64,000 bases of DNA, from NCBI GenBank assembly GCA_015039465.1, contig MU130348.1:238926-302925 (forward strand). The letters run 5' to 3'. The position numbers and the translations under genes were made by a program. The DNA comes from Phlegmacium glaucopus. Its lineage: Eukaryota > Basidiomycota > Agaricomycetes > Agaricales > Cortinariaceae. The notes under the pieces were generated by a model. That model searched no databases. It had not been told where the DNA came from and saw only the letters and a list, made by a program, of their open reading frames with translations. Positions 3,079 to 62,637 of the stretch are shown in pieces. The number at the start of each line of letters is the position of its first letter. Position 1 is the first letter of the stretch.

Positions 3079-4300
3079 ATGAAGCTAAGTGCTGACGGCT
3101 TTGTCAGTATTGGGTTATGTCTCCAAGGCTTTCTTCACGGTAAGATATTTTCTACAACTTTCACGGCACCTGCTAAAGAAGTATAATATTAACCTGTCCC
3201 AGGAGTATATTCTGGCATATTCGCCATATATTTACAAGACCACTGGACATCGAACAAAGGCACCAACAAGGGAAATGTCATTTTCTATGCTGTGTGTGCT
3301 CTATATATGCTCTCTGTTGTCAACGTTGTGGTTGATATAACAAGTTTCATTGTTTCGGTTAGTACCAATTTCATCGGTAACAATAACCATCTTTTTTTAC
3401 TCTTTCTGTTTTGCAGAATCCAACGGTATCCTTCCACATAGCTTTTATTCAAGGCATAGTATCAGGTTGCTGCGATTTCATAGCTCAATCTATCCTAGTA
3501 TGTATCGACTACTTATCCCCAACATTTATTTTATTCATGGAAATCTTAAAGATCTACCGTTGCTGGATTGTGTGGGGTTGCAATATCCGTGTCGTGATCC
3601 TTCCTTCAATCTTGGCATTTGCATTCTTAGGTCGGTCGACCTATCTTATTTGACTGGCCAATTTCAATTCATTGTCTCTAGCTATGTGGGTAGTGGATAT
3701 CGGCTTCATTCACACTGTCTCAGACAAACTTGTGGGACCTGACTGGGGGGAGTGGCTGGTTGTAGCAAGTCTCGCCATATCCATGACTGTGAATGCTCTG
3801 GTGACAGGCTTGATCGTGTGGAAGATCTTCAAAGTGTACCGTGAAGTTAAATCCGCGGAGTCAACTTTGCGCGTCACTGGCGGGAGCAAAATTCTGACTG
3901 TCATATTCGTGCTAATTGAATCTGGCATGATGTTGTTTGCAATCCAATTCGCTCGGCTCGTGTTGATCATTGTGTCAACGGACAATCTTGAAGCTTATGA
4001 TGTCATCCTTGGTATCCACCAAATGCTCAACGTGATTACAACATCAGTCATTGCTTCTCATTTTACTAATTACATGAGTCTGTCTAGGGCATAACACCTA
4101 CAATCATCTTTGTACGGCTATCAATGAGATTGTCATTCTACGACCAGGAGTCCATGATAGAATCTAGCGTTGGGAGTTTGCGCTTTGCGGATAACAATCC
4201 AAATGCAAATCCGGAAAGGGGAGATGTCGATATAGGGAATAGAGATGATGATATTGGCATTGGACTAAGCGACGATATCCAGATGGTAGATAGAACATAG
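3079..4300 (+). CDS. T1: orphan seven-transmembrane protein, six exons, intact (312 aa)
   Basis: Predicted exons are 3079-3139, 3203-3357, 3417-3497, 3552-3630, 3682-4031 and 4088-4300. All junctions are GT-AG and keep one frame to TAG. The start is MKLSADGF, the conserved MKL start of the family, 53 nt after a TATA box. Hydrophobic segments lie near residues 8-30, 46-70, 75-98, 109-130, 145-172, 193-218 and 225-252. The motif IYRCWIVWG follows TM3, and the tail ends SDDIQMVDRT. The role is unknown; the topology resembles a receptor. The TM4-TM5 loop (DIGFIHTVSDKLVGPDWGEW) differs clearly from the other copies, and the TM5-TM6 loop lacks three residues (DDQ). The acceptor of exon 4 is the least certain junction. 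Confidence 0.8.
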
Positions 4301-4940
4301 ATCATGTTGTGGCATAGGAAATACTCATCGTTGTCCAAAATGTCCATCATTAAACGCATCTTAATCAGGTCAACTTACTGTAGAGCCAGCGCGTGCTCTC
4401 CTGCTCTTGACTCAAGTACCGTCTTTCTTTCATTCTGAATAGATCCATGGAATAGGTACTATACCATTGTAATAAAATATGGAATCATTAACTCCTTGGA
4501 CCTGAGTCCTTGATTCCCACCACCGAATTTCCGTCGTTGGTCGCTGGTTACTGGGTACAGGCCCCTGCCCAACAATATCTTCTGGAACGTTGGCCACCAC
4601 CACCACCACCAACCTCATTCACAACTCAGATCGATCATAAATAATTCCCGCTGGCACTGGGTCGAGGGTTCACACAGAGGAGCAGGGAGCAGAGAGTGGG
4701 GGGACGACGATTCTGTGATAACATACCTCCGAATACTTATCCCAATCATCTCTTGCAGATTTATTAACAGTGGTGTATATTTAACTATCCAGTATTACAA
4801 TCTTGCCTTCAGTTCACTGTAACGAATGGGGACGAGACTAGTGATTCGCAACCAACCTATCGAGGACTGTGGGTAGTATGCTGGTCTAGGAGTCGAATTC
4901 GGATCTCGTCCCGCCAGCTGTACATCGAGGATATACTAAA
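4301..4940. repeat. Unit spacer D1 with a diverged kinase exon-1 relic
   Basis: This is the 3' flank of T1 and recurs after T3, T5 and T6. On the minus strand near 4520-4618 it encodes VVVVVANVPEDIVGQ, a diverged cognate of the kinase N-terminal exon (LVVVASLPDIFGQ in H1). The rest (4640-4940) is a conserved spacer (a GGAGCAGGGAGCAGAGAGTG block and a CCTATCGAGGACTG block) ending where H2 homology starts. No gene is seen. Confidence 0.55.
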
Positions 4941-7028
4941 ACGGCTATGGTTCGCCCTTGTAGCGTCAACTGAAAAAACAATATAAATCAGCAATTTAAA
5001 CAACAAACGAAGAAAAACATGCGTTGTGAGCCATCACTATCCATCAAACCCTTCCACGTCCCACCAATATTCGTGGTCCTGGCCTGACTACCCAACCGCC
5101 TTCCGTCCCGACGTCTCTACCCACGAGTGACTCGATCAGCGAAGACACTCAAAACTCTGTCATTCCATTAACCGTCTCTTTCCATTGCAAGATCTCTCCA
5201 CGGACATTGTCTTCAAATCACCACCAGCAACGGCTTTGGTCACTTCTGCGGTTGAACGCACTTGATTGGTCAAATTCATGGCCATGAGGTTGACCGTTAT
5301 CAGTAAGGACCTAGAACAAGTCATAAGAGCATATTATGAGGAAAAAGAGAACTGGAAATCACCAACTTTCCACGTTCCCTGAACGTCAGGTACAAACACC
5401 TGTCTACCCAAGACTCCCTTCTAACTTCCAAACTGACTTGAGTGACTTCGTTAGCCAATGTGCCCAACTGAGCGGCCATGGAGTTGACGGTCGTCTTCAA
5501 GTCAAGCATCTCTTCTTGAACGTCAACATTGATGAAGGCCACCTAAGGCAAGAGCTTTCGTAACCTCTGAGATGGATAGCACTTGATCGGCCAAATTTGA
5601 AGCCATTTTCTGTCGAAGATTGTCATCAAACGAGAATGAAAAGATGGAATGGAGCGACATACGCTGACGTTCCTGGTGAAATCAGCCCAGGTTCCCTGCA
5701 CACCTTTGACTTTTGCTTGACCTCTCAATATAACTGCGTCCCGACTTCCAAAACTACTCTCGTCACTTCAGAAGCAAATGCTGACAACTGGTCCAGCATG
5801 GAATTGACGGTTCCTACAAAGCTTGATAGTTGGAATAGTCCATAATCTAGTCGACAAGAAAAATACCTTTCAACGTTAACATTTCACCCCTCGACGGATA
5901 TATCGATCTTCTGGGTCAAATCACCCCTAGCGACAGCGGTCGTGACAACTGCAATTGACCGTACTTGATCTGTAAGAGAGGAAGGCATTCGGTTGATCCT
6001 ATCGAAAGAACGGTTTTCATCAAGAGCGTCATGCAAAAAAGAAACACATACGTTCCGAACCAAATTCAACCACACTCCTTCCACGTCCGGTACATGTGCT
6101 TGACCTCCTAGTTTGCCTTGACTTCCGACTTCTAAAGTGACTGGAGTGACTTCCGCCGCCAACGCTCGTAGTGACTCGAGTGACTTCCACCACCAGCGCT
6201 CATAATCTGAGAAAACAATCAGTACGCGTCCAGAGGAAATATGAGTACAGCGAACCTAAGCACCATTCCCTTGACAGTATTCTTGAGATCTAGAATTTCA
6301 CCGCGAGCATCCGTTGAGATCCCCAAGTGCGACTGCCTTGGTCACTTTCGCTATAGATCGTACCTAGTGAACAATAAAACGGTTAGTGGAGAGTATAGAT
6401 GTATAACGAGTAAATTGCGAACTTTGAGATGCTTTGCTGCCAATTTGTTGACCACCCCTGTCAATTCTCGCCATTTGCCCTCGACGTCAAGAACAAGAGC
6501 TTGTCTGCCAAGTGTTCTGTTCAGTGGGATTAGCCTGATGTCGTTTGATCGATCGATGCGTACCCTTCAGTTCTGACTTCTTCAGATACACGAGTCCTTT
6601 GAAAATTGTCCTTCTAAGAATGGTTTAGGACATGGATGAATGAAAACAATAATGAATACACCATGGTATTCATGACGTCCTTGAGTTGAACCATGACCAG
6701 ACCTTGAACGGGACCGTAATCTTTTGAATAAGAACGCCTCGTGCAACAGCGTTGCGGACGCGAGCGACATCTTGGACCTGAGCGTTTAGTAGTTTAAGTT
6801 CGAGTTGGACTGATATAAGCGTATGCGGGGAGCATGAGGGGGACTGATCCTTCCGCAGGTGGGACAATGAGGATGGGCTGTTGGAGGGGCTGAATTGTGA
6901 CCAGGACCGTTGGCGACGGGAGTATGATGGGCAGCTGCGGCAGCGTGAACCTGATAATCTTTCAAATTTCCGTAAGTGCGAGAGAATATATTTGAAGGAT
7001 CAAGGGACGATTGCAGACCGTCGAATTC
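4941..7028 (-). pseudogene. Truncated group III histidine kinase fragment H2 (HAMP array), fused to T2
   Basis: The minus strand encodes the N-terminal region (SSIDPS near 7000, PTAHPHCPT), LNAQVQDVARV, the HAMP segments [20 protein letters not shown] (about 5970-5910), EEMLDLKTTVNSMAAQLG (5520-5460), and a last exon ending LTLQGRTIAV at 4941, where homology stops. A 14-nt deletion near 6311 (also in H8 and H9) shifts the frame in the second HAMP repeat. A short duplication is seen near 6150-6200. Introns are kept, so this is a DNA-level copy. Its 5' end is joined directly to T2 exon 4 at about 7028. Kinase and receiver domains are absent. Confidence 0.82.
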
Positions 7029-7728
7029 GTCTTGGCATTTGTATTCTTAGGTGAGTCAACCTATCTTATTTGACTGGCCAATTTCAATTCATTGTCTCTA
7101 GCTATGTGGCTAGTGGGTATCAGCACAGAGTACATTGTATCAGACCAAATTGCGCAACTTGTCTGGGGGGCTTGGCTGGATATAGCAAGTTTCGCCGTGT
7201 CCATGACTGTGAATGCTCTAGTGACAGGCTTAATCGTGTGGAAGATCTTCAGTGTGTACTGTGAAGTTAAATCCGCGGAGTCGGATCACCAAACTTTGCG
7301 CGTCACTGGTGGACGCAAAATTCGGACTGTCATATTCGTGCTAATTGAATCTGGCATGATGTTGTTTTCAATCCAATTGGCTCGGCTTGTGCTTGCCATT
7401 GTGTTGACGGACACTGCCTTTGACGCTTATCAGATCATCGCTCCTGTCCACCAAATGCTCAATGTGATTACAACATTGGTCATTGCTTCTCATGTTACTA
7501 ATAACATGATCTTTCTAGGGCATAACACCTACAATCATCTTTGTGCGGCTATCAATGGGATTGTCGTTCTACGACAAGGAATCCATGATAGAATCTAGCG
7601 TCGGGAGTTTGCGCTTTGCGGATAACAATCCAAATCCAAATCCGGACACGGGGGATGTCGATATCGTGGATAGAGACGATGATATTCGCCTTCGACTAAG
7701 CGATGAAATCCAGATGGTAGATAGATGA
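7029..7728 (+). pseudogene. T2: 3' fragment of the 7TM gene (end of exon 4, exons 5 and 6)
   Basis: The fragment holds the last 22 nt of exon 4 (7029-7050), exon 5 (7102-7463) and exon 6 (7519-7728), with the usual GT-AG borders and an open frame through TM5, TM6 and TM7 to VDR and TGA. Exons 1-3, the promoter and the whole U spacer are missing. The left end abuts the H2 kinase fragment. The TM4-TM5 loop reads GISTEYIVSDQIAQLVWGAW. It cannot make the complete protein, but the remaining frame is undamaged, so the deletion may be recent. Confidence 0.82.
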
Positions 7729-9339: not shown

Positions 9340-10965
9340 GAGGTAGAAGGTACTCTAGGTCGATAGGCGTAGGGAAGGCTGGCAGACAGGTTTTTTAATT
9401 GTTCCGGCGCGAAGGTTAGTTGGGGCCCGGACCTATTGCAATCTTGGATACCTTAGTTCCGGCTCAGCGCTACTACTTAAATTTTCCAGTAACCAGCGCA
9501 AAAACCGTTCACTAACCCGACGAACAACTACAATCCCCTCAATTCTACCGGCCGACACGTCTCACTATAGCTATCAGTTACTTACTTTCTAAATCATTGC
9601 TAACCTCACTGTACCTTATAGCAAAGTGAACGGACATGAGGGTATCCAGGTGTTGTTTTGGTCGTCATGGTAGCTTACATACGCAATAAGTTGGTCGTCA
9701 CGATGAGCTGGCGACCTGTCTGATAACCCCTCCAAACTCCCGCAACGTACGAGCCCACGGCCTCCGTAGAACCAATAAACCAACAACCAGCGTCAGCTTA
9801 ATTTACCTGTAACAACCTACCACTGGTCGCTGCCTCTAAACTACCATCCTAACTGCTAGCTCGAGTACCCGTTATCGGCGAAGTTGCTGAGACTATAATG
9901 AAATAATGTGATGTAGGTCGTGGAGAATGAGAACGTTTCTGCACACCAAATGTCCAGATACACAATCTACAGTCGGAATTGATTTCTCGGCCTGAAGTTA
10001 AAGGATCATAATTGAAATTTATCGCTTTCTGCCAATCTGATTTGCTTGGCAATATTAAACTCACCAATCTGGGCGAAACACTTCAAGTTCGAAATCAAAG
10101 ACCAGCCGACGTGTATACCAGTTTTCACGTTTCTAAGACTATGGTAGCCGCTAACGTATCTGCCGATGGCGACTAGCCGTGTCCCTCATGGGTATCCGAG
10201 TTGGGAACTCAGTTGACGTGTTACAATAACAGTACGGGAGTGATTGATCAAGCGTTTCATAAATGGTTGTACCTTGGTTAGTAAAGAAAACGTCTATTCT
10301 ACATCTTTCGACCTGAACTCACTTATCACCCACAATGGAAAATGTAAGTGACCACATCCACGTTCTTCAAAGTAACTTTTTACCCATCTGTTCGTCTCCA
10401 TTCTCCAGTTCTGCCTAAATTGAGATCCCTAAAACTTTTTATGGAGGGCTTGATCAAGAAAGAGAAGATGGCGCTTAATTCATCATGGTGAATACTCACT
10501 GCGGATATTAGCGCTTCAATTAGCAGTAACCTTAGTTGATAATAATACCGTGAACATACCTTGAATCTATAATCGATAAAGGTATCCATGCATTATTTCA
10601 CAATGTTTGTCCTCATACCCTTCGTCATCAAAATCAATCCTTATATCTACAGAGTAGTATAGGGCACAATGATTAGATCATAAATTATTCGATATGATCA
10701 CTATCACTGGGTCATCCTTCTTGGAGTCGGGAGCAGAGAGTGGGGAAGACAACGATCCTGTGATAATATACCTCCGAATACTTATCCCAGATCATCTCTT
10801 GCAAACTTCTTAACGGTGGTGTATATTTAATTATCCAGCCCTCGGTTCGGATGGGGACGAGATTAGTGCTTTATAACCAACCTATCGAGGACTGTGGGTA
10901 GCATCCTGGTCTAGAAGTAGAAACCGGATCTCGTGCCGCCAGCTGTACATAGAGTATATACTAAA
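9340..10965. repeat. Unassigned region duplicated at 56199-57289
   Basis: From about 9880 to 10965 the sequence is colinear with 56280-57289, with small indels. The part at 9930-10070 is also related to 19890-20020 and 48650-48790, where a CTGCACACCAAATGTCCAGATA block is shared, so this is a dispersed segment of unknown nature. Bases 9340-9880 have no match I noticed elsewhere in the window. I see no convincing gene. The right end (10730-10965) is the D-type flank that precedes most H fragments. Confidence 0.45.
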
Positions 10966-13020
10966 ACGGCTATGTGGTTCGCACTTGTAGCATCAACTGA
11001 AAAAAAGAATGTAAATCAGCTTTTTAACAACAAACGAAGAAAAACATACGTTGTTAGCCATCACGTTGATATTATCCGTCAAATCCTTCCACGTCCCACT
11101 AACATTCGTGACCCTGGCCTGACCACCCAACCGACCTTCCGTCCCGACTTCTCTAGCCACACGAGTGACTTCATCAGCGAAGACACTCAAACTCCCTGTC
11201 ATTCCATTGACTGTCTCTTTCAATTCCAAGATCTCCCCACGGACATCAACTTCAATCACCTTCGTCAAAGCACCACCAGCAACGGCTTTGGTCACTTCTG
11301 CGATTGAACGCACTTTATTGGTCAAATTCATAGCCATGAGATTGACATTATCAGTAAGGACCTGAAAAAATCATTCGCTCAAGATCAGGTTATTAGGAAA
11401 AAGAGAACCGGGAAATCACCAACTTTCCACATTCCCTGAACATCAGGTACAACCGCCTGTCCACCCAAGATACCTTCCGTTCCAACTTCCAAACTGACTC
11501 GAGCGACTTCGTTAGCCAATGTGCTCATCTGAGCGACCATGGAGTTGACGGTCATCTTCAAGTCTCCTCGAACATCAACATTGGCGAGCTCGGCAAGGTC
11601 ACCTAGGGCAACGGCTGTCGTAACTTCTTCTGAGATGGATCGCACTTGATCAGTCAAATTTTCTGTAAGATGGAATGAAGTGACATACGCTGACGTTCCT
11701 GGTCAAATCAGCCCAGGTTCCCTGCACACCTTCAACTCTTGCTTGACCTCTCAATATACCCTGCGTTCCGACTCCCAGTGCTACACTCGTCACTTGAGAA
11801 GAAAATGCTGACAACTGATCCACCATGGAATTGACGGTTCCTACAAAGCTTGATAGTTGGAATACGAGTCCATAATCCAGTCAAGAAGAAAAAATACCTT
11901 TCAATGTTCACATTTCACCCTCGACGGATACCCCTTCCACGTCCAGTACATGTGCTTGGCCTCCTAGTTTGCCTTGACTTCCGAGTTCTAAAGTGAATCG
12001 AGTGACTTCCGCCGCCGGCGCTCGTAATCTGACAAAACGATCAGTCCGCGTCCAGAGAAAATATGACCAGAGTGAATCTAACCAACATTGTGTTGACAGT
12101 ATTCTTGAGATCTAGAATTTCACCACGAGCATCCACTTCAAATTTTTTTCTCAGATCTCCCAGTGCGAATGCCTTGGTCACTTTCACTATAGATTGTACC
12201 TAGTGGACAATAAAATGGTTAGTGGAGGATATAGATGTATAACGAGTAAGTTGCGAACTAGGGATGTTGTATTTGCTGCCAATAGTTGACCACCACCATC
12301 AATTCTCACCACGTACCTTCAACGTTGAGAATGAGAGCTTGTCCGCCAAGTTTTCTGTTTAGCGCCATAAGACAGAGGTCGCTTGATTAATCGATACGTA
12401 CCCTTCAGTTCCGACTTCTTGGGATACACGAATGGCTTCCTTTGCAAATTGTCCTAATCTATCCATATAGAAAGGCCTTAGGACATGAATAAATGAAAAA
12501 CAATAATGAATATACCCTAGTATTGATGAGGTCCTTGAGTTGAACCGTGACCACCCTGAACGAGGACTGTAATTTTTTGACTGAAATCGCCTCGTGCAAC
12601 AGAACCGAGTGATGTCCTTTCCAGTGGACCTGAGCCTTTAGTAGTTTAAGGTCGAGTCTGGACTAATATCTGGGAGAGCATGAGGGGGTCAGAGACTGAT
12701 CTTTCATAGGTGGGACCATGGGCCTTTGGGGGAGCTGGACTGTGACCAGGACCATTGGCAATGGGAGTATGAATGGCAGCTACGCCAGCGTGAGCTTGAT
12801 AAAGGTCTCATGTTTCCCTAAGCGCGAGAGGATATAAGGATCGATTGACGATTGCAGACAGTTGCAGACCAGTCACTGATCATGTGATCGCCTGGCCCTT
12901 TCCGTTTCGGATAGACTCCGCAGTCAAACACTTGGTCCTTGATCCCACTACTAGTACTGAATCTCCGTCGTTGGTGCTGTCCAAATATATCTGGTAAACT
13001 GGTCACCACGACCAATTTAT
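10966..13020 (-). pseudogene. Truncated group III histidine kinase fragment H3
   Basis: The minus strand shows the N-terminal exon (SLPDIFGQHQRRRFSTSSGI near 13000-12950), then decayed linker and HAMP blocks, [18 protein letters not shown] (11650-11590), and a well-kept last repeat, [21 protein letters not shown] through [20 protein letters not shown] (11330-11080). About 220 bp including one HAMP exon is missing at about 11931, with the same junction as in H10. Frame changes in the N-terminal part rule out a full-length product. The last exon ends at the truncation point common to the other copies (RTIAV). No kinase domain. Confidence 0.82.
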
Positions 13021-14711: not shown

Positions 14712-15951
14712 ATGAAGCTAAATATTGAAGACTTTGGCTTCATTGGAGCATTTCTCGAAGGCTTTCTGTACGGTAAGATATTTTTTCTACAACTTTCACG
14801 GCCTCTTCTAAAGAAGCATAATATTAACTGTCCCAGGGCTGTATTCTGGCATATTCGCCATGTATTTACAAGACCACAGGGCATCAGAAAAAGGCTGCAA
14901 CAAGACGAAAAACATCGTTTTCTATGCTCTGTGCAGTCTATATGCTCTATCTCTTGTTACCGTGGTGGTTGATATGACAAGTGTCATGTATAGAGTTAGT
15001 AATAATTCCATTGGTAACAATAACCATCTTTTTTCACGCTTTATATTGTACAGGGGAATCTAACGGCATTACTCCACCTTGGTTTTATTCAAGGCACAGT
15101 ATTTGGCTGCTGCGATTTTATAGCTCAATCTATACTAGTATGTATAAACTACTATGCCTATCATTTATTTTATTCATGCAAATCCTAAAGATCTACCGTT
15201 GCTGGATTATGTGGGGTTGCGATATCCGTGTCGTGATTGTTCCTTCAATCTTAACATTTGTATTCTTAGGTCAGTCAAGCTATCTTGTTTGACTGGCTAA
15301 TTTCAAATTATTGTCTCTAGCTATGTGGCTAGCGGCTAGCGGCTCGCAGTACGTTCTCTCAGACCAAATTATGGCACCTATGTGGGGGTTTTGGCTAGAT
15401 GTGGCAGGTCTCACCATTTCCATGACCGTGAATGCTCTGGTGACAGGCATAATCGTGTTGAGGATCTTCAATGTGTACCGTCAAGTCAAATCCACCTTGG
15501 GCGATCAAACCTTGGGCGTCACTGGCAGGAGCAAAATTCTGACTGTCATATTCGTGCTAATTGAATCTGGCATGGTATTATTTTCTATCCAATTGGCTCG
15601 GCTCGTGGTTACAGTTGATCACACGACGGACGCTGGTTTTGACGCTTATGATGTCCTCATTTTTATCCACCAAATGTTCAATGTGATTACAATATCACTC
15701 ATTGCTACTTCTTACCCCACTGATAATATGGGTCCGTCTAGGGAATAACACCCACAATCATCTTGGTGCGGGTCTCAATGGGATTATCTTTCTATCACAA
15801 GGAATCCATGATAGAATCGAGCGTCGGGAGTTTGCGCTTTGCGGATAACAATCCAAATCCAAATCCGGAAACGGGAGATATCAATATCATGGATAGGGAC
15901 GATGATATTGGCGTTAGACTAAGCGACGATATCCAGATGGTAGATAGATGA
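14712..15951 (+). CDS. T3: orphan seven-transmembrane protein, six exons, intact (317 aa)
   Basis: Exons are 14712-14772, 14837-14994, 15054-15137, 15191-15269, 15321-15682 and 15742-15951. Phases fit throughout and end in VDR and TGA. The start MKLNIEDFGFIG matches the family. This is the second subtype: exon 2 reads KTKNIVFYALCSLYALS where subtype 1 has KRNVIFYALCALYMLS, and exon 3 gains one residue from an extended acceptor. Seven hydrophobic segments and the IYRCWIMWGCDI motif are present. Loop TM4-TM5 is ASGSQYVLSDQIMAPMWGFW, and loop TM6-TM7 contains DHTTDAGFDAYDV. The function is unknown and a receptor role is inference. Confidence 0.8.
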
Positions 15952-16600
15952 TCATATAGAACATAGATCATGTTGTGATGTGGAAAATAGTCATCGTTGT
16001 TGAAAACGTTCATCATCAAACGCATCTCATTCTGCTCAACTTCCTGTAGAGCCAGCTCGTGCTGTCCTGTTCTCAAGTACTCTCTCTTTCATTCCGAATA
16101 GACCCATGGAATAGGTACTACCATGGTAACAAAATATGGAATCATTAACTCTTGGGACTCGGTCCTTGATTCCCACCACCGAATTCCCGTCGTTGGTCGC
16201 TGGTTACTGGTTACTGGCATCTGTCCAACAATATCCTCTGGAAAATTGGCCACCACCAACCAACCTCATTCACAACTCAGATTGATCATAAATAATCCCC
16301 GCTGGCACTGGGTTGCTCCAATGTAGGGTTCACACGGAGGAGCCAGGAGCAGAGAGTGGGGAGACAATGATTCTGTGATAAGATACCTCCGAGTACTTAT
16401 CCCAAATCATCTCTTGTAGACTTCTTAACAGTGGTGTATATTTAACTATCCAGTATTATAATCTTGCCTTCAGTTTACCGTAACGGATGGGGACGAGATT
16501 AATGATTAGCAACCAACCTATCGAGGACTGGGTAGTATCCTGGTCTAGGAGTCGAATTCGGATCTCGTATCGCCAGCTGTACATCGAGGATATACTAAAA
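15952..16600. repeat. Unit spacer D3 with kinase exon-1 relic
   Basis: Same arrangement as D1. On the minus strand near 16220-16270 the relic reads LVVANFPEDIVGQ. The remainder is the conserved spacer up to the H4 truncation point. No gene. Confidence 0.55.
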
Positions 16601-17664
16601 TGGCTATGGTTCGCCCTTGTAGCGTCGGCTGAAAAAATGATATAAATCAGCAATTTAAACAACAAACGAAGAAAAACATACATTGCTAACCATCATTATC
16701 CGTCAAACCCTTCCACGTCCCACCAGCATTCGTGGTCCGGGCCTGACTACCCAACCGACTTCTGTCTCGACTTCTCTAGCCACGAGTGACTCGATCAGCG
16801 AAGACACTTAAAACTCTGCCATTCCATTGACTATCTCTTTCGATCCCAAGATCTCTCCAGACATCAACTTCCATCTTCTTCGGCGAAATCACCACCAGTA
16901 ACAGCTTTGGTCACTTCTGCGATTGAACGCACTTGATTGGTCAAATTCATGGCCATGCGGTTGACATTATCGGTAAGGACCTGGAGGGATTCATCCGCTC
17001 AAGATCAGGTTATTAGGAAAAGAGAACTGGAAATTACCAACCTTCCACATTCCCTAGACGTCAGGCACCCACACCTGTCCACCCAAAATACCATCCGTTC
17101 CAGGTTCCAAATTGACTCGAGTGACTTTGTTAGCCAATGTGATCAGCTGAGCGGTCATGGAGTTGACAGCCGTCTTAAAGTCAAGCATATCTCCTTGAAC
17201 ATCGAGCTTGCCAAGGTCACCTAGGGCGACGGCTTTCGTAACTTCTGAGATGGATCGTACAAGTTCAAATTCGAAGCCATTTTCTGTTGAAGATCGTCAT
17301 AAAATGAGAATGAAAAGATGGAATGAAGCGACATACGCTGACGTTCCTGGTCGGGTTTCCTGCACACCTTTGACTCTTGCTCGACCTCCCAATATACATA
17401 CCTGCATCCCGACTCCCAATGCTACCCCCGTCACTTCAAAAGGAAATGCTGACAATTGGTCCACCATGGAATTGAGGGTTCCTACAAAGCGTGATAGTTG
17501 GAATAGAGTCCATAATCCAGTCAAAAAAAAAAAAAACCTTTCAGTGTTGACATTTCACCCTCGACGGATATCTCCATCTTCTGGGTCAAATCACCGACGG
17601 CGGTCGTGACAACACAGCAATTGACCGTACTTGATCCACAAGAGAGGAACACATTCGATTGACC
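16601..17664 (-). pseudogene. Truncated histidine kinase fragment H4 (3' HAMP repeats only)
   Basis: Only the downstream half of the usual fragment is present. On the minus strand it runs from RVNRMCSSL (about 17660), where it is fused to T4, through the repeat with QLSAFPFEVTGVALGVG (17460-17400) and the last repeats (17270-16700), to the common truncation point at 16601. Internal deletions are visible, for example after GVQGTW near 17355. No N-terminal exon, no kinase domain, several frame breaks. Confidence 0.8.
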
Positions 17665-18279: not shown

Positions 18280-20120
18280 TCACATAAAATAGCTATAACT
18301 AAATCTTGTAGATATCACACATGAACGCGTAGAAACTATGGTCAAGCGTGGGAAAGGCTTAGCCAGACGCAGATCAACGATGAGGGTCAAGACGTCACGC
18401 GTCAAGACGTCAACCAGTTGCAGCACCTCAGAACTCCCTCCACCCACTCACACTCACACTCGAGACCTCACGCCGACATTCACACTCATTCACACTCATT
18501 CTCGCCTTCTCACACTCGCTGTCCGCGTCTGGCAGTGGCATTGTTCTATACCAGATTGATCATCACGAGTTAAGGTAAGCCCATAAGTTATCATTCGCGC
18601 TCTCGAGGAATGATATATTTATTTTATTTTAGTAACACTGGTACCATATTTGCCTCCGTCGCATTTCCGCTTGCACCGACTGTACCGTCTCTCGCCAATG
18701 ATTCACTACATTCACATTCACTGGCTATGACTCGGAGTACCGCAACCATGACGATGCCACCTTGGATGCGGCAGGGTTTGTGACCATTGCAGCAGACGAC
18801 GAAGGAAAACAAGTAGGAGACGACAAAGGCGGGAGAGATCAATCACCCACTAAACGCCCATTGAACACACATTGACAAAACTAACTCGTTGTTTTCCCAC
18901 ACAACGAGTGGGCAACAAGTGGATTTAAGCCAGTTGGTGCCCGTCATTATCGATCTAGAACATCAACTGAGTAGGTATAGAGCAGGGTCTTCAGTGGTGC
19001 AGCGGAGAGGTTCAAATGAGGATTTGGGCACGCCGAGTGAATATATTGGTATTCTGAATGCGTCTGTCTCACTCATTATCCGTTGATATCTAGCCATCCC
19101 GTTCGGTTTCAGCTCTGTAATTTGGACCGATTCCGACGATTGATGATATCCCCTCCCGTCCTGATATCAAATGGAATCGTTAAAAGTGTTGGGTTCTGGG
19201 TGAAGGCCAGAGGTCAATAGTAAGTAAGCAATGCTTTGTTTCGCTTGGATTTCTCATCTCGGTTCAATCCTTAGTTACTTGCCTTTCATTTCGGGTGGAC
19301 GCCATATTATACTCTGCCATGGCAATGAAGCTATCAAATTTATCGAAGCGGTCATTGCCCATAATCTCGATCCTCAGTCCTACCATTAAATGCCCGTCGC
19401 TGGTCACCATCCAACAATGCCCATTTAATTTGGCTGCGACTAACAACCAACCAACCAACCCGAGCATCCAACACCATCAATGGTCCGCCCAGCGGTCAAG
19501 TGGAACTGCTGATTGACGACGCATACATTCGATGGTACTGCTGGCTTTGTTGTGGACCTATGAAAGTACGGGTAAGTGAAGATACAGTTCAAGTCACTCC
19601 TATCGTACTCGACCCTTCATTCACTCTCAATATTACCCCGGACTGTAGGCCGCCTTCCTTCCCTGACACCAACAAGCACTCCAATTACTCACCCGAAAAC
19701 GCGACAAATGACCTTTAAATTCATCATCGCGCTCGGCTTGATTCTACAGGTGCTAAAATTATTTAAGCATGGGGTTCATTGGAGGAGCGACCTTGGATAA
19801 ATTTTTGGACAGATGGTCGGAAGGGATACGGATAGCGGGATCTCGTGGAAGATGGAGGATAGAGGTGATGTGGGCCTACGTACGAAGAATGGGTGCGTTT
19901 CTGCACACCAAATGTCCAGATATATGATATCCAGTTGGAACTGATTTCTCAGCCCGAACTTGAACGATCTTAAAGGGAATTTATTACTTCCAGCCAATGT
20001 GAGTTGCTTGGCGATATTAAACTCATCAATCTATAGAAGAAACACTTCAAGACCAACAACTAGCCCACATGTATATCGGTTTTCACGTCTCGAAGACCAC
20101 AAACCCGCTAACTTATCTTT
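18280..20120. repeat. Segment C1 (unidentified gene fragments), duplicated at 47074-48930
   Basis: A unit-foreign segment present twice in the window. It holds a CA-rich stretch (18434-18530), an open plus-strand piece at about 18718-18872 (GYDSEYRNHDDATLDAAG, then AADDEGKQVGDDKGG), one at about 18900-19086 (LVPVIIDLEHQLSRYRAG), and NEAIKFIEAVIAHNLDP at about 19326-19376. From 19776 to 20010 lies a minus-strand frame with NKFPLRSFKFGLRN and LDIWCAETHPFF. Pieces recur near 35590-35800, 55330-55500 and, inverted, 63850-64000. I recognise no family. The exons may belong to one or two decayed genes. Confidence 0.5.
18434..18530 (+). repeat. CA-rich low-complexity stretch
   Basis: Repeats of CACTCACACT and CACACTCATT; the second copy is at about 47193-47290. 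It is too irregular and too internal to be a telomere. Confidence 0.7.
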
Positions 20121-42441: not shown

Positions 42442-42569
42442 TTATATAGAACAGCTAGAACTAGATCTTGTAGATAGCAACCAACCTATCGAGGACTGTG
42501 GGTAGTATGCTGGTCTAGGAGTCAAATCCGGATGTCGTACCGCCAGGTGTACATAGAAGATATACTAAA
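42442..42569. repeat. Short spacer D8
   Basis: Only about 130 bp separate T8 from H8. The flank jumps from TTGTAGATAG directly to CAACCAACCTATCGAGGACTG, so most of D, including the exon-1 relic, was deleted. Confidence 0.6.
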
Positions 42570-45726: not shown

Positions 45727-46842
45727 AATAATACCTTTCAATGTTGACATTTCCCCTTGGACGGATATCTCGATCTTCTGGGTCAAATCACCCCTAGCGA
45801 CGGCGGTTGTGACACCTGCAATTGACCGTACTTGATCTGTAAGGGAGGCACACATTCAATTGACCTATAGAAAGAAAGGTTTTCGTCAAGACCGTCCATG
45901 TAAAACACAAATTACATTCGTTCCGCACCAAATTCGACCACACTCCCTTCCACGTCCGATACATGCACTTGACCTCCTAGTTTGCCTTGAATTTCCGACT
46001 TCTAAAGTGACTTGAACGATTCCCATCGCCAGCGCTCGTAATCTGACAAAACAATCAGTCCGCGTCCAGAGAAAATATGACCACAGCAAACCTAATCATC
46101 ATTCCATTGAGAGTATTCTTGGGATCTAGAATTTCATCGCGACCATCCACTTCAATTTGTTTACTGAGATATCCCAGTGGCACTGCCTTGGTCACTTTCG
46201 CTATAGATCGTACCTAGTGAACAATAAAACGGTTAGTGGAGAGTATAGATGTATAACGAGTAAGTTGCGAACTTTGAGATGTTTTGCTGCCAATTGTTGA
46301 CTACCCCTGTCAATTCTCGACCTGTGCCCTCGACGTCGATAACAAGAGCTTGTCTGCCAAGTGTTCTGTTCAGTGGGATAAGCCTGATGTCGCTTGATCG
46401 ATCGATGCGTACCCTTCAATTCCGACTTCAGATACACGAGTCCTTTGAAAATTGTCCTTCTAGGAATGGTTTATGACATGGATGAATGAAAATAATAACG
46501 AATATACCATGGTATTCATGACGTCCTTGAGTTGAACCATGACCACACCCTGAACGGGGACCGTAATCTTTTGAATAAGAACGCCTCGTGCAACAGCGTT
46601 GGGAACGCGAGCGACATCTTGGACCTGAGCGTTTAGTAGTTTAAGTTTGAGTTGGACTGATATAAGCGTATGCGGGGAGCATGAGGGGAACTGATCCTTC
46701 CGCAGGTGGGACAATGAGGATGGGCTGTTGGAGGAGCTAAATTGTGACCAGGACCGTGAGCGATGGGATTATGATGGGCAGGTTGCGGCAGCGTGAGCCT
46801 AATAAGCTTTCACATTTCCGTAAGGGCGAGAGAACATATTAT
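45727..46842 (-). pseudogene. Truncated histidine kinase fragment H8b (N-terminal half)
   Basis: The minus strand runs from the N-terminal linker (near 46830) with a TAG at the YQAH motif (bases 46799-46801), through LLNAQVQDVARVPNAVARG (46640-46590), PVQGVVMVQLKDVMNTM, to [26 protein letters not shown] (45850-45775), stopping at EMSTLKG (45730). It is bounded on the right by a T exon-6 relic and on the left by U8b, so both ends are rearrangement points. No kinase domain. Confidence 0.82.
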
Positions 46843-49149: not shown

Positions 49150-51240
49150 AACAGCTATGGTTCGCGCCTGTAGCGTCAACTGAAAAAAATAAAAATAAAT
49201 AAAACAATGTAAATCAGCCTTTTAACAACAGACGAAGAAAAACATACGTTGTTAGCCATCAGGTTGACATTATCTGTCAAATCCTTCCACGTCCCACTAA
49301 CATTTTTTGTGAACCTGGCCTGACCGCCCAGCCGACCTTCCGTCCCAACTTCTCTAGCCACACGAGTGACTTCACCAGCGAAAACACTCAAACTCTCTGT
49401 CATTCCATTGACTATCTCTTCCAATTCCAAGATCTATCCACGCCATCAACTTCAATCTTCTTCTTCATCAAATCACCGACGCCTATCCACCTAAGATACC
49501 TTTCATTCCAACTTCCAAACTGACTCGAGTGACATTGTTAGCCAATACGCTCAGCTGAGCAACCATGGAGTTGATAGTCATCTTCAAGTCAAGCATCTCC
49601 TCGAACATCAACATTGACGAACTTGTCAAGGTCACCTAGGGCAATGGTTTTCGGAATATCTGAGATGGATCGCACTTGATCGGTCAAATTCAAAGCCATC
49701 TTCTGTCGAAGATCATCATAATATACAAATGAAAAGATAGAATGAAGCAACATACGTTGACGTTCCTGGTCAAATCAGCCAAGGTTCCTTGCACACCTTC
49801 GACTCTTGCCTGGCCTCCCAATATACCCTGCCTTCCGACTTCCAATGCTACCCTCGTCACTTCAGAAGCAAATGCTGACAACTGGTCCACCATGGAATTG
49901 ACGGTTCCTACAAAGCATGATAGTTGGAATAGTCCATAATCCAGTCAAGAAGAAAAAAATACCTTCCAATGTTGACATCTCACCCTCGACGAATATCTCG
50001 ACCTTCTGGGTCAAATCGCCCCTAGCGACGGCGGTCGTAACAACTGCGATTGACCGTACTTGATCTTTAAGAGAGGAACACATTCGATTGACCTATAGGA
50101 AGAAAGGTTTCCATCGAGACCGTGATGCAAAACACAAATTACATACGTGCCGCACCGGATTCAACCACATTTCCTTCCACGTCCGATACATGTACTTGGC
50201 CTCCTAGTTTGCTTTGACTTCCGAGTTCTAAAGTGACTCGAGCGACTTCCGCCGCCAGCGCTCGTAATCTGACAAAACGATCAGTCCGCGTCCAGAGGAA
50301 ATACGACCATAGCGAACTTGTAGCGAACCTAACCACCATTCCATTGATAGTATTCTTGAGATCTAGAACTTCACCGCGAGCATCCATTGAGATCTCCAAG
50401 TGCGACTGCCTTGGTCACTTTCGCTATAGATCGTACCTAGTGAACAATAAAACGGTTAGTGGAGAGTATAGATGTATAACGAGTAAATTGCGAACTTTGA
50501 GATGTTTTGCTGCCAATGTGTTGACCACCCCTGTGAATTCTCGCCATTTGCCCTCGACGTCAAGAACAAGAGCTTGTCTGCCAAGTTTTCTGTTCAGTGG
50601 GATTAGCCTAATGTCGCTTGATCGATCGATGCGTACCCTTCAGTACTGACTTCTTCAGATACACGAGTCCTTTGAAAATGGTCCTTCTAGGAATGGTTTA
50701 GGACATGGATGAATCAAAACAATAACGAATATACCATGGTATTCATGACGTCCTTGAGTTGAACCATGACCACACCTTGAACGGGACCGTAATCTTTTGA
50801 ATGAGAACGCCTCATACAACAGCGTTGAGGACGCGAGCGACATCTTGGACCTGAGCATTTAGTAGTTTAAGTTCGAGTTGGACTGATATAAGCGTATGTG
50901 CGGAGCATGAGGGGGTCAGAGACTGATCCTTCCGCCGGTGGGACAACGAGGATGGGCTGAAGTTGGAGCAGCTGAATTGTGACCAGGACCGTTGGTGGTG
51001 GGAGTATAATTGACAGCTGCGGCAGCGTGAGCCTAATAAGCTTTCACATTTCCGTAAGGGCGAGAGAGCATATTATTGGAAGGATCGATGGACGATTGCA
51101 GACCATCGAATTCTTCACTGGTCATGTGATCGCCTGACTCGAGGTACTTGGTCCCTGATCCCACTACTAGTACTGAATCTCCGTCGTTGGTGCTGTCCAA
51201 AGATATCTGGCAAACTGGTCACCACGACCAACTTATTTTT
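49150..51240 (-). pseudogene. Truncated group III histidine kinase fragment H9
   Basis: One of the most complete copies. The minus strand gives the N-terminal exon (DIFGQHQRRRFSTSSGI, about 51210-51160), the linker with a TAG at YQAH (51033-51035), LLNAQVQDVARV-like sequence (in shifted frame), then HAMP repeats with [54 protein letters not shown] and [18 protein letters not shown], ending at the common truncation point. A 14-nt deletion near 50385 and a fusion deletion near 49440-49495 break the frame. All introns are still recognisable. No kinase domain. Confidence 0.83.
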
Positions 51241-52864: not shown

Positions 52865-52904
52865 GGTCAGAGATGCGATAGGTCATTGCAACAGACACGA
52901 AGTC

Positions 52905-54127
52905 ATGAAGCTAAGTGTTGACGAATTTTTCATTATTTCGTTTTATCTCGAAGGCTTTCTTTATGGTAAGATATTTTCTACAACTTTCACGGCACCTGCT
53001 AAAGTATTAACCTGTCCCAGGAGTATATTCAGGCATATTCGCCATATATTTACAAGACCACTGGACATTGAACAAAGGCGCCGACAAGAGAAATGTCATT
53101 TTCTATGCTCTGTGTGCTCTATATATGCTCTCTGTTGTCAACGTTGTGGTTGATGTAACAAATCACATTGTTTCAGTTAGTACCAATTTCATCGGTAACA
53201 ATAACCATCTTTTTTACTCTTTCTGTTTTGCAGAATCCAACGGTATCCCTCCACATAGCTTTTATTCAAGGCGTAGTATCAGGTTGCTGCGATTTCATAG
53301 CCCAATCTATCCTAGTATGTATAAACTACTTATCCCCAACATTTATTTTATTCATGGAAATCTTAAAGATCTACCGTTGCTGGATTGTGTGGGCCTGCAA
53401 TATCCATGTCGTGATCCTTCCTTCAATGTTGGCATTTGTATTCTTAGGTCAGTCAACTATCTTATTTGACTGGCCAATTTCAATTCGTTGTCTCTAGCTA
53501 TGTGGCTAGCGGCTAGCGGCTCCGCGTACATTCTCTCAGACCAAATTGTGGACCCTGACTGGGGGACTCGGCTTACTGAGGCAAGTCTCGCCATGTCCAT
53601 GACTGTGAATGCTCTAGTGACAGGCTTGATCGTGTGGAAGATCTTCAAAGTGTACCGTGAAGTCAAATCCGCGGAGTCGGATGACCAAACTTTGCGCGTC
53701 ACTGGCGGGAGCAAAATTCTGACTGTCATATTCGTGCTAATTGAATCTGGCATGATGTTGTTTGCAATCCAATTGGCTCGGCTCGTGCTTGGTGTTGTTC
53801 CAGAGACGGACACTGTCGATGACGCTTATGAGATCATCGTTGCTATCCACCAAATGCTCAATGTGATTACAACATCAGTCATTGCTTCTCATTTACTAAT
53901 TACATGAGTCTGTCTAGGGTATAACACCTACAATAATCCTGGTGCGGGTCTCAATGGGATTATCCTTCCAAGACAAGGAATCCATGATAGAATCGAGCGT
54001 CGGGAGTTTGCGCTTTGCGGATAACAATCCAAATCCAAATCCGGAAACGGGGGATGTCGATATCGTGGATAGAGACGATGATATTCGCCTTCGACTAAGC
54101 GATGAAATCCAGATGGTAGATAGATGA
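52905..54127 (+). CDS. T9: orphan seven-transmembrane protein, six exons, intact frame (316 aa)
   Basis: Exons are 52905-52965, 53021-53175, 53234-53314, 53369-53447, 53498-53862 and 53918-54127. The frame is open to TGA. Start MKLSVDEFFIISF, motif IYRCWIVWACNI (Gly to Ala at the last motif position), loop TM4-TM5 ASGSAYILSDQIVDPDWGTR where other copies have Trp for the final Arg, loop TM6-TM7 PETDTVDDAYE. Intron 1 is about 10 nt shorter than in the other copies. Exon 6 and its flank match T2 rather than the T1/T5/T8 group. The promoter has lost part of its TATA box, so expression is uncertain. Confidence 0.78.
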
Positions 54128-56198: not shown

Positions 56199-57289
56199 GG
56201 GTTGATTGGAAGCGCGGCCTTGTTAATTTTTTGGACAGACGATCGGAAGGGATGCGGATAGCTGGATCTCATGGAAGATGGAGGTGATGTAGTCGTGAAG
56301 AATGGGAGCGTTTCTGCACACCGAATGTCCAGATATACGATCTACAGGTTGGAACTTATTTCTCAGCCCGAACGTAAAGGATCGTAATTGGAATTTATCG
56401 CTTTGTACCAATCTGATTTGCTTGGCAATATTAAACTCACACAACCAGCCGACGTGTATACCGGTTTGCCCTTCCCTAAGACTATCTAGCCGCTAGCGTA
56501 TCTTTTGTACTGGCGATGGCTAGTCGTGTCCCCATGGGTATCCGAGTTGGGAACTCAGTCGACGTGTTACAATAACAGTACGGGAGTGATTGATCATAGA
56601 TGGTTGTACCTTGTTAGTACAGAAAACATGTATTCTACATCTTTCGACCTGGACTCACCTATCACCTACAATCGAAAAATCCACATTCTTTAAAGTAACA
56701 TTTTACCCATCTGTTCGTCCAGTTCTGCCTAAATTGAAACCCCTAAAACTCTTTATGGAAGGCTTGATCAAGAAAGAGAAGATGGCGCTTGATTGATCAT
56801 GGATATTAGCGCTTCAATTATCAGTGACCTTTGTTGATAATAATACCGTGAACATACCTTGAATCTATAATCGATAAAGGTATCCATGCATTACTTCAAA
56901 ATGTTTGTAGTCATACCCTTTGTCATCAAAAGCAATCCTTAGGCCTTAGGCCTTATATTTCAAGTATCTACAGAGTAGTTGATTAGATGATAAATTATTC
57001 GATATGATCACTATCACTGGGTCATCCTTCCTGGAGCCGGGAGCAGAGAGTGGGGAAGACAACGATCCTGTGATAATATACCTCCGAATACTTATCCCAG
57101 ACTCATCATCTCTTGCAAACTTCTTAACGGTGGTGTATATTTAATTATCCAGCCTTCGGTTCGGATGGGGACGAGATTAGTGCTTTATAACCAACCTATC
57201 GAGGACTGTGGGTAGCATCCTGGTCTAGAAGTCGAAACCGGATCTTGTGCCGCCAGCTGTACATAGAGTATATACTAAAACGGCTATGG
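56199..57289. repeat. Unassigned region duplicated at about 9880-10965
   Basis: 56199-56290 resembles the end of segment C1 (TTTTTGGACAGA..GGTCGGAAGGGAT at 19800). 56300-57289 is colinear with 9930-10965, including the TTTATGGA.GGCTTGATCAAGAAAGAGAAGATGG block and the D-type spacer before the H fragment. No gene is supported. Confidence 0.5.
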
Positions 57290-59345
57290 TTCGCACTTGT
57301 AGCATCAACTGAAAAAAAGAATGTAAATCAGCTTTTTAACAACAAACGAAGAAAAACATACGTTGTTAGCCATCACGTTGATATTATCCGTCAAATCCTT
57401 CCACCAACATTCGTGACTCTGGCCTGACCACCCAACCGACCTTCCGTCCCCACTCTCTAGCCACACGAGTGACTTCATCAGCGAAGACACTCAAACTCCC
57501 TGTCATTCCATTGACTGTCTCTTTCAATTCCAAGATCTCTCCACGGACATCAACTTCAATCACCTTCGTCAAAGCACCACCAGCAACGGCTTTGGTCACT
57601 TCTGCGATTGAACGCACTTTATTGGTCAAATTCATGGCCATGAGATTGACATTATCAGTAAGGACCTGAAAAAATCATTCGCTCAAGATCGGGTTATTAG
57701 GAAAAAAGAGAACCGGCAAATTACCAACTTTCTACATCCCCTGAACATCAGGTACAAACGCCTGTCCACCCAAGATACCTTCCCTTCCAACTTCCAAACT
57801 GACTCGAGTGACTTCGTTAGCCAATGTGCTCAGCTGAGCGACCATGGAGTTGACGGTCATCTTCAAGTCTCCTCGAACATCAACATTGGCGAGCTCGGCA
57901 AGGTCACCTAGGGCAATGGCTGTCGTAACTTCTTCTGAGATGGATCGCACTTGATCAGTCAAATTTTCTGTCGAAGATCATCATAAAATGAAAAGGAAAA
58001 AAAGATGGAATGAAGTGACATACGCTGACGTTCCTGGTCAAATCAGCCCAGGTTCCCTGCACACCTTCAACTCTTGCTTGACCTCTCAATATACCCTGCA
58101 TTCCGACTCCCAGTGCTACACTCGTCACTTCAGAAGAAAATGCTGACAACTGATCCACCATGGAATTGGGTTCCTACAAAGCTTGATAGTTGGAATACGA
58201 GTCCATAATCCAGTCAAGAAGAAAAAATACCTTTCAATGTTCACATTTCACCCTCGAAGGATACCGCTTCCACGTCCAGTACATGTGCTTGGTCTCCTAG
58301 TTTTCCTTGACTTCCGAGTTCTAAAGTGACTCGAGTGACTTCCGCCGCCAGCGCTCGTAATCTGACAAAACGATCAGTCCGCGTCCAGAGAAAATATGAC
58401 CAGAGCGAATCTAACCAACATTGTGTTGACACTATTCTTGAGATCTAGAATTTCACCGCAAGCATCCACTTCAATTTTTTTACTCAGATCTCCCAGTGCG
58501 AATGCCTTGGTCACTTGCACTATAGATCGTACCTAGTGGATAATAAAATGGTTAGTGGAGAATATAGATGTATAACGAGTAAGTTGCGAACTAGGGATGT
58601 TGTATTTGCTGCCAATAGTTGACTACCACCATCAATTCTCGCCATGTACCTTCGACGTTGAGAATGAGAGCTTGTCCACCAAGTTTTCTGTTTAGCGCGA
58701 TAAGACAGAGGTCGCTTGATTAATCGATACGTACCCTTCAGTTCCGACTTCTTGGGATACACGAGTGGCTTCTTCTTTGCAAATTGTCCTAATCTGTCCA
58801 TATAGAAATGCCTTAGGACAAGGATGAATTCAAAACAATAATGAATATACCATAGTATTGATGAGGTCCTTGAGTTGAACCGTGACCACACCCCGAATGA
58901 GGACCGTAATTTTTTGACTAGAATCGCCTCGTGCAACAGAACCGAGTGACATCCCTTGCCAGCAGATCTGAGCCTTTGTTAGTTTAAGGTCGAGTCTGGA
59001 CTGATACTATCCGGGAGAGTATGAGGGGGCCAGAAACTGATCTTTCACAGGTGGGACCATGGGCTTTTGGGGGAGCTGGACTGTGACCAGGACCGTTGGC
59101 GATGGGAGTATGAATGGCAGCTACGCCAGCGTGAGCTTGATAAAGGTTTCATGTTTCCGTAAGCGCGAGAGGATATAAGGATCGGATTGACGATTGAATC
59201 GACGATTGCAGACCAGTCACCGATCATGTGATCGCCTCAGTCAAATTTGAGCACTTGGTCCTTCATCCCACTACTAGTACTGAATCTCCGTCGTTGGTGC
59301 TGTCCAAATATAACTGGCAAACTGGTCACCACGTCCAATTTGTTT
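57290..59345 (-). pseudogene. Truncated group III histidine kinase fragment H10
   Basis: Nearly the same as H3. The minus strand has the N-terminal exon near 59320-59270, decayed linker blocks, [18 protein letters not shown] (57960-57900) and a well-kept last repeat, [21 protein letters not shown] to [15 protein letters not shown] (57635-57460). It shares with H3 the loss of one HAMP exon (junction about 58264) and adds its own small deletions near 57405 and 58169. The end is the common truncation point. No kinase domain. Confidence 0.82.
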
Positions 59346-60973: not shown

Positions 60974-61018
60974 GCAAGGGTCAGAGATGCAATAAGTCAT
61001 TAAAACAGACACGAGGTC

Positions 61019-62637
61019 ATGAAGCTAAATCTTGGAGACTTTGCCATTATTGCGTTTTATCTCGAAGGCTTTCTCTATGGTAAGATATTTTTTCTACAAC
61101 TTTCACGGCACCTGCTAAAGAAGTATAATATTAACCTGTCCCAGGAGTATATTCTGGCATATTCGCCATATATTTACAAGACCACTGGACATCGAACAAA
61201 GGCACCGACAAGAGAAATGTCATTTTCTATGCTCTGTGTGCTCTATATATGCTCTCTGTTGTCAACAAGGGGTACGCAGCACTGGAGAAAAAGACATGAT
61301 GTTGTTTTTAGGTGCTAAATGGACTGGGAAATTGAAATCTGAAGTCGCTTTGTCGTCAAAGTTTCTGGTTGCCAAGTTATGGCCACTTTTGTACTTTGGA
61401 GGAGAAAATTTTGACCCCCAATTTTTTCAAATTTTCTGGACCTCTTTTGTCGTTCTGCACACTTTTCAAAAAAAAAAACCAGCCTTTTGGACCCCTCCCC
61501 TCCCCCAAAATTTCCTTATATGGTAAGTCAACAAGGACCCATGGGAAAAACTTCGGAGTTGAATTTTTCGATCTCCCAGCCATTTCTAAGCCCAAAAACA
61601 ACATAATGTCCTTAATCAATTTTTGCTTACCCCTTGGTTGTCAACGTTGTGGTTGATATAATGATTTCCATTGTTTCAGTTAGTACCAATTTCATCGGTA
61701 ACAATAACCATCTTTTTTTTTATACTTTCTCTTTTGCAGAATACAAGGGCATCCCTCGACATAGCCATTGTTCAAGGCACAATAGCTGGTTGCGCCGATT
61801 TCATAGCTCAATCTGTCTTAGTATGTATAATCTACTACGCCTATCATTTATTGTATTCATGCAAATCTCAAAGATCTACCGTTGCTGGATTGTGTGGGGC
61901 CGCAATATCTGTGTCGTGATCCTTCCTTCAATCTCAGCAATTGTATTCTTAGGTCAGTCAAGCTATCTTACTTGACTGACTAATTTTGAGTTATTGCCTC
62001 TAGTTACGTGGCTAGTGGCTAACAGCTCACAGTACATTCTCTCAGACCAAGTTGTGGATCCCGCCTGGGCGAATTGGCTGGGTGTGGGAAGTGTTGCCAT
62101 GTCCATTACTGTGAATGCTTTGGTGACAGGCTTAATCATCTTCAAGCTCTTCAATCTGTACCGTGAAGTTAAATCCACCTCGAACGACCACACTTTGGGT
62201 GCCACTGGCGGGAGCAGGATTCGTACTGTCATATTCATGCTCATTGAATCTGGCATGATGTTGTTTTCAATCCAATTGGCTCTGTTCGTTATTACCATTG
62301 TGTTGACCGACATTACCGATAAGGTTTTTGATATCATTGTTGCTATCTACCAAATGCTCAATGTGATTACAATATCGGTCATTGCTACTTCTTTCTTTAA
62401 CTGATAACATGATCTTTCTAGGGTATAACGCCTACAATCATGGTGGTGCGGGTCTCAATGGGATTGTCGTTCCACGACAAGCAATCCATGATACGATCTA
62501 CTAGTACTACCGGGAGCTTGCGCTTTGTGGCTAACAATCCAAATCCAATTCCGGAGATGGGAGATGTCGATATCGTGAACAGAGACGACAATATTGGCGT
62601 TCGACTAAGCGATGAAATCCAGATGGTAGATAGATGA
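61019..62637 (+). pseudogene. T10: seven-transmembrane gene disrupted by a MITE in exon 2
   Basis: Exons are 61019-61079, exon 2 in two parts (61145-61265 and 61645-61678), 61740-61820, 61874-61952, 62004-62362 and 62422-62637. The two exon 2 parts add up to 155 nt, exactly the length in T1, T5, T8 and T9, and every other exon is open. The only lesion seen is therefore the inserted element. Exons 1-2 are of the T1/T5/T8/T9 type (MKLNLGDFAIIAF), while exons 3-6 are of the T7 type (loop NSSQYILSDQVVDPAWANW). The gene is thus a chimera joined in or near intron 2. Some product could survive if the insert were spliced out, but no such signals are obvious. Confidence 0.85.
61266..61636. mobile_element. 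hAT-like MITE, 371 bp, with 8-bp target site duplication
   Basis: The insert starts CAAGGGGTA and ends TACCCCTTG, perfect 9-bp terminal inverted repeats. The similarity continues imperfectly for about 70-80 bp inwards (GACATGATGTTGTTTTTAGG against GACATTATGTTGTTTTTGGG on the other strand). The 8 bp GTTGTCAA occur on both sides (61258-61265 and 61637-61644) but once in the uninterrupted gene copies. Eight-base duplications and CA-G-rich ends are typical of the hAT superfamily (family knowledge). No transposase is encoded, so it is non-autonomous. I saw no second copy in the window. Confidence 0.88.

Follow-up and report, generated by a model that had tools for sequence, protein, structure and literature searches.

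A tandem array of putative receptor-like seven-transmembrane protein genes in the mushroom Phlegmacium glaucopus

Gene copies and the repeated unit

Phlegmacium glaucopus (Cortinarius glaucopus) is an ectomycorrhizal mushroom. The window analysed here is a 64,000-nt stretch of its genome assembly (GCA_015039465.1; 60.5 Mb in 259 contigs), namely positions 238926-302925 of contig MU130348.1 (C120, 313,370 bp), and carries a tandem array of genes for a seven-transmembrane (7TM) protein that is a candidate surface receptor. A sequence-only reading of the window had described eight full-length six-exon genes and three 3' remnants on one strand, six of the full-length genes intact and two broken, with nearly constant exon lengths. 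This description is confirmed; exon-by-exon blastn finds the eight full-length copies and the three remnants (E-values far below chance). Six copies have uninterrupted six-exon frames with GT-AG introns (products of 312-319 aa), so that five of the eleven are broken or partial. Exons 1 to 6 measure 61-67, 155-158, 81-84, 79, 350-365 and 210-216 nt, respectively. Intron 5 starts after the HQMLN codons and exon 6 opens with GITPT; many P. glaucopus gene models and spliced environmental sequences show this arrangement too. The copies are as follows.

3079..4300, plus strand: copy 1, intact, 312 aa, six exons
7030..7728, plus strand: copy 2, 3' remnant that begins late in exon 4 and runs into exon 6, joined to a kinase fragment
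14712..15951, plus strand: copy 3, intact, 317 aa
17668..18279, plus strand: copy 4, 3' remnant of exons 5 and 6, directly next to a kinase fragment
23629..24866, plus strand: copy 5, intact, 317 aa
29103..30350, plus strand: copy 6, full length, exon 2 frameshift, pseudogene
33760..35005, plus strand: copy 7, intact, 319 aa
41204..42441, plus strand: copy 8, intact, 316 aa
46864..47073, plus strand: copy 9, reduced to exon 6, 23 bp past a kinase fragment
52905..54127, plus strand: copy 10, intact, 316 aa
61019..62637, plus strand: copy 11, full length, exon 2 interrupted by an insertion
61267..61636, no strand assigned: insertion in exon 2 of copy 11, resembling a miniature inverted-repeat transposable element (MITE), 370 bp, flanked on both sides by GTTGTCAAC

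The insertion in copy 11 lies between 9-bp direct repeats (GTTGTCAAC) and has MITE-like ends (AAGGGGTA.../...TACCCCTTG). Positions 7104-7463 and 7519-7728 of copy 2, when translated, match the annotated P. glaucopus protein P0046 (189 aa) letter for letter. Copy 8 has zero coding differences from copy L021 on contig C217 (match C217:2695-3240), which indicates either a very recent duplication or an assembly that contains both haplotypes; a second near-identical pair of this kind is L030 and L031 (synonymous divergence Ks 0.005). Inverted repeats at 36277-36922 and 62733-63385 (90-98% identity) show that the spacer direction is reversed past copy 11, and the orientation of the array may flip there. 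Runs of N occupy 9240-9339 and 55606-56198.

The sequence-only reading, right about the copies, missed a second component of the repeated unit. Between the 7TM genes lie minus-strand fragments of a hybrid histidine kinase with HAMP repeats, presumably of the group III (Nik1) class. The 5' flank of the 7TM gene is also part of the unit.

2560..3078, plus strand: 5' flank of copy 1, amplified together with the gene at other places in the genome
3..1278, minus strand: kinase fragment 1, degenerate, group III histidine kinase, cut by the window start
4940..7024, minus strand: kinase fragment 2
10965..12859, minus strand: kinase fragment 3, inversion junction 10964/10965, HAMP hits over the Pfam cut-off
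16599..17664, minus strand: kinase fragment 4
20120..21821, minus strand: kinase fragment 5
25513..27539, minus strand: kinase fragment 6, HAMP hit
37433..39357, minus strand: kinase fragment 7, inversion junction 37432/37433
42569..44597, minus strand: kinase fragment 8, inversion junction 42568/42569
45727..46840, minus strand: kinase fragment 9
49150..51109, minus strand: kinase fragment 10
57279..59215, minus strand: kinase fragment 11, inversion junction 57278/57279, HAMP hits

The parent-like kinase gene is itself found inside a 7TM array (locus L045, about 3750-9000, equal to C217 about 50750-56000), where it starts about 0.9 kb downstream of a 7TM gene. Its successive exon pieces match HAMP, HisKA, ATPase and (weakly, in two of the pieces) receiver domains; read singly, they give the impression of a whole gene. 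Seven of the 11 window fragments stop at one parent position (6380 of L045), which in four units is joined straight to position 3442 in the opposite orientation. The other end falls between parent positions 4152 and 4199 in 10 of the 11. These common ends and the inversion junction suggest one founding inversion followed by amplification rather than repeated capture. In all three 7TM remnants a kinase fragment lies 3 to 23 bp from the 3' piece of the 7TM gene, as expected of deletions by unequal recombination. Kinase pieces occur in at least 82 places in the genome (40 of 65 candidates scored). The 519-bp 5' flank has at least 43 genome matches (40 of 205 candidates scored), and in the first ten listed after the query, nine of which are not in the window, the flank stops 466-488 bp short of the IYRCWI.WG motif of the 7TM protein. 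The kinase fragments were rejected as a second functional gene, as 17-27 indels of lengths not divisible by three separate them from the parent in all eight examined of the 11 (introns counted).

Family size, relatives and predicted structure

The array is one part of a genome-wide family, which the sequence-only reading also missed. A 29-nt pattern for the IYRCWI.WG motif (up to two mismatches) is found in 199 places against 4 in the reversed control, an exon 6 pattern (up to three mismatches) in 137 against 6, and a protein search gives at least 261 exon-level matches (125 of 702 candidates scored); all of these counts take in pseudogenes and remnants. The listed portion of the 199 places spans at least 36 contigs. 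Short contigs and the ends of contigs hold many of the copies, though not all: one is on C105 (about 683 kb of 1,024 kb). Four tandem TTAGGG units, the marker by which a subtelomeric location would be judged, do not occur anywhere in the assembly. Among sampled non-window loci, which were the best matches to copy 1 plus the L045 gene beside the kinase and so not a random sample, 20 of 27 have uninterrupted models; this is an upper estimate, as the lenient model builder also passed the frameshifted window copy L019.

P. glaucopus is the only named species among the best 120 of 264 matches to a single sequence and the best 120 of 412 matches to a profile. The divergent member P0073 used as query (best 120 of 128) also finds Gymnopilus junonius (27% identity) and several Mycena species (26-33%), whose proteins retain IYRCWIVW, the ESG motif of transmembrane helix 6 (TM6) and GI.PT in TM7. 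These relatives indicate that the 7TM family is old in agarics; as far as the matches listed show, the expansion appears to be special to P. glaucopus and its close kin. Of the 61 listed jgi and lgn sequences, 55 have exons 3 and 4 joined, 35 exons 5 and 6, 19 exons 1 and 2, and 9 show all three junctions joined, counts from strict text patterns that also miss variant residues; in six ena sequences no junction is joined. Most of the jgi and lgn sequences are therefore read as probable transcripts of relatives. Among the papers listed in searches of open-access literature, none describes this family or its expansion, most subscription literature being outside the scope of those searches.

The annotated relative P0001 has seven TM helices in its AlphaFold2 model, together with a helix 8 and a hairpin in extracellular loop 2 (ECL2), a layout like that of G protein-coupled receptors (GPCRs). 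The models, the positive-inside charge and the fold matches together predict a GPCR arrangement with the N-terminus outside. In VIA structural matches of two family members GPCRs are on top, with Ste2 first and human TAS2R14 second, while microbial rhodopsins, ion pumps among them, score about 3 Z units lower; the predicted fold is Ste2-like. P0001 has no lysine in TM7, where microbial rhodopsins carry their Schiff-base lysine, and no lysine is among the conserved positions. R103 and C104 at the end of TM3 are invariant, and D93, Q97, N164, T168, E210, S211 and Q219 are invariant or near-invariant polar residues within the helix bundle.

Searched against Pfam (E-value up to 1), 64 members match 19 families, each in one to three members (best DUF5325, 3 of 64, E-value: 0.00088); such matches are not widely common and are taken as chance. 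Eight further proteins (P0146, P0152, P0154, P0155, P0160 and P0161 from Gymnopilus and Mycena, with P0142 and P0073) match nothing better than an E-value of 2.9, and a profile search of PDB sequences (E-value up to 10) gave no match. The seven hydrophobic segments, the local amplification, the similar proteins in other agaricomycetes and the orphan status claimed by the sequence-only reading are accordingly upheld by the predicted helices, the tandem copies, the Gymnopilus and Mycena relatives and the Pfam searches, respectively.

Divergence of the outer and inner halves

Sequence variation is concentrated on the predicted outer side. The entropy of outer helix halves is 2.00 bits, that of inner halves 1.05, and the outer value is higher in all seven helices, which makes the true assignment the most extreme of 128. 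Across 24 genes the ratio of nonsynonymous to synonymous differences (pN/pS) is 1.06 in the outer half (bootstrap 0.88-1.29), 0.44 in the inner half (0.35-0.55) and 0.55 in the tail, with region boundaries in copy-10 numbering that may be one residue off those of the model; of the 128 orientations, the true one is once more the extreme. TM6, which lacks the contrast, and the variable inner loop ICL1 are exceptions. The gene set leaves out the window's own loci L011, L019, L020 and L034, the duplicates L021 and L030, and the seven of the 27 non-window loci without a model of 295-345 aa with an ATG start. Codon models give an omega of 1.51-1.74 for the outer half, 0.50-0.53 for the inner half and 0.92-0.95 for the whole gene, and fixing the outer omega at 1 costs 14-17 log-likelihood units. 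The outer half is read as probably under diversifying selection and the inner half as probably under purifying selection.

Among the 15 closest genes, pN is 0.160 in the outer half and 0.040 in the inner half, with an outer pS of 0.132, and introns are less divergent than exons in all 105 pairs. The four closest window units differ by 2-6% in introns, 5.5-11% in 5' spacers, 10-11% in exons and 9.5-15% in kinase debris; their outer nonsynonymous divergence (0.165) exceeds that of both the 5' spacers (0.055-0.113) and the kinase debris (0.095-0.154). In copies 1, 5, 8 and 10 (genes within 3079-54127) introns are also less divergent than the 5' spacers. This low intron divergence could stem from intron constraint or from local gene conversion.

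Proposed function and its alternatives

Somewhat more likely than not, the array belongs to a family of GPCR-like surface receptors that has expanded in the Phlegmacium/Cortinarius lineage. The computed basis is the seven predicted helices, the Ste2-like predicted fold, the conserved cytoplasmic half and the diversifying outer half, together with tandem birth-and-death growth and the spliced, transcript-like sequences of relatives. Tandem copies, pseudogenes and a diversified predicted ligand-facing half were all found, as in chemoreceptor-type families; a large, fast-changing family that differs mainly on its predicted outward-facing side looks receptor-like, in the manner of animal smell receptors.

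The mechanism envisaged has the N-terminus outside, each paralogue binding an external ligand of its own in a pocket that the outer helix halves and extracellular loops make up. The signal would be relayed by the common cytoplasmic face (R103/C104, the cytoplasmic ends of TM5 and TM6, GITPT of TM7 and helix 8), most simply to the G-alpha proteins of the genome. These give 46 exon matches in about 18 clusters, whereas fungi usually have only a few G-alpha genes; together with about 7 STE3 clusters they make G-protein coupling possible. The founder unit would have combined the 7TM gene with its 5' flank and with a truncated group III histidine kinase piece in inverted orientation; unequal recombination of this unit would have enlarged the family, leaving the kinase piece as debris. 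With such a set of chemoreceptors the mushroom could perceive host roots, soil microbes or other mycelia. The chemosensory or recognition role suggested by the sequence-only reading gains from the GPCR-like predicted fold and the outer-half diversification and is partly supported as an interpretation; chemoreception of hosts or microbes specifically merits less confidence than the receptor assignment.

Several observations weigh against this reading. Copy 1 searched against Pfam (E-value up to 10) matches only PepSY_TM, below the cut-off (E-value: 0.4), and not STE2, STE3 (PF02076), DUF6534 or DUF6533; STE3 likewise has no match in the 64 members (E-value up to 1). Total exon divergence in the four closest units (0.100-0.112) is not the highest of the classes, which weakens the idea of exons simply outrunning neutral DNA: only outer nonsynonymous sites exceed all other classes. 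The polar residues kept inside the bundle, the missing GPCR match in Pfam, the broken copies, the kinase debris carried along with the unit and the many copies on short contigs or near contig ends each have a place in the alternatives considered below.

Known 7TM classes resemble the family in part. Ste2 (class D, or class I, fungal GPCR) shares its predicted fold, but identity is 9-11% and the STE2 model matches neither copy 1 (E-value up to 10) nor the 64 members (E-value up to 1). Ste2 is not known to form a large tandem family. It is reported from Ascomycota only (PMC12842992, PMC13308352). DUF6534 7TM proteins of Agaricomycotina have been put forward as a new class of GPCR (PMC12842992). 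They are likewise agaricomycete and GPCR-like by prediction, but the array family differs at the level of Pfam model matches: PF20152 (DUF6534) has no match in copy 1, the 64 members or the eight further proteins, and the genome has 10 DUF6534 exon matches. The DUF6533 model (PF20151) also has no match in these three sets. SNB1/DUF6533 (Snowball) proteins are agaricomycete 7TM proteins, predicted N-out and of unknown mechanism, but are reported with few copies per genome, mostly 1-3, and 4-5 in Psathyrellaceae (PMC10949477). Pth11-like GPCRs also form large lineage-expanded fungal families (F. graminearum has 105 GPCRs in total), but are reported from Pezizomycotina only (PMC13308352); no CFEM-type Pfam match was found in copy 1 or the 64 members, a domain carried by only 4.1% of class 14 proteins (PMC12842992). 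Animal olfactory, V1R and T2R arrays are alike in their tandem clusters, birth-and-death and pseudogenes (PMC11526382), and TAS2R14 is among the top fold matches. The mushroom genes differ in having five introns; the likeness is one of organisation and predicted fold rather than of sequence, and the sensory role is putative.

A 7TM transporter, channel or membrane enzyme, with an outer half varying with substrate and without receptor signalling, is an unlikely alternative but the strongest. The conserved polar residues and the lack of a GPCR Pfam match would suit it, and a transporter or channel, besides a receptor, is among the options the SNB1 authors give for that other agaricomycete 7TM family (PMC10949477). 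Against it stand the GPCRs heading the VIA matches, the lower-scoring microbial rhodopsins and the GPCR-like helix 8 and ECL2 hairpin, and diversification of the extracellular side in so large a family would be typical of recognition proteins.

Rather less likely is self/non-self or mate recognition between mycelia instead of perception of host or environmental chemicals, for which the pheromone receptor Ste2 at the top of the structural matches and the many members with diversifying outer faces, fitting allorecognition, could be cited. Against it, a search of the window for CaaX pheromone genes gave one open reading frame, overlapping a 7TM gene, against one in the reversed control; recognised STE3 receptors (about 7 clusters in the genome) have matches on C127, C144 and C240, not on the window contig; and known mating loci carry few receptors, against some 140-200 loci here.

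Mostly neutral segmental amplification, with copies as by-products of a recombining repeat and few of them used, would explain the broken copies, the co-carried kinase debris and the contig-end positions but is improbable given purifying selection on the cytoplasmic half (pN/pS 0.27-0.44), the mostly uninterrupted models in the best-match sample from the lenient builder and the spliced environmental relatives, and drift would not be expected to put outer pN above both pS and spacer divergence.

In its fullest form, the receptor reading gives an ectomycorrhizal mushroom its own smell-receptor-like repertoire of some 140-200 loci: Pfam-less, Ste2-folded GPCRs, spread by founder-unit recombination, with a positively selected ligand face, telling host roots, microbes or other mycelia apart. 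This is put forward tentatively. Little is known of how mushroom-forming fungi sense their hosts and neighbours. Most fungal GPCRs are described as orphans (PMC13308352). The family, constrained on its inner face and diversifying on its outer one, would offer a concrete candidate, open to experimental test, for a set of fungal chemoreceptors, with ligand specificity predicted to reside in ECL1, ECL2, ECL3 and the outer ends of TM2-TM5 and TM7.
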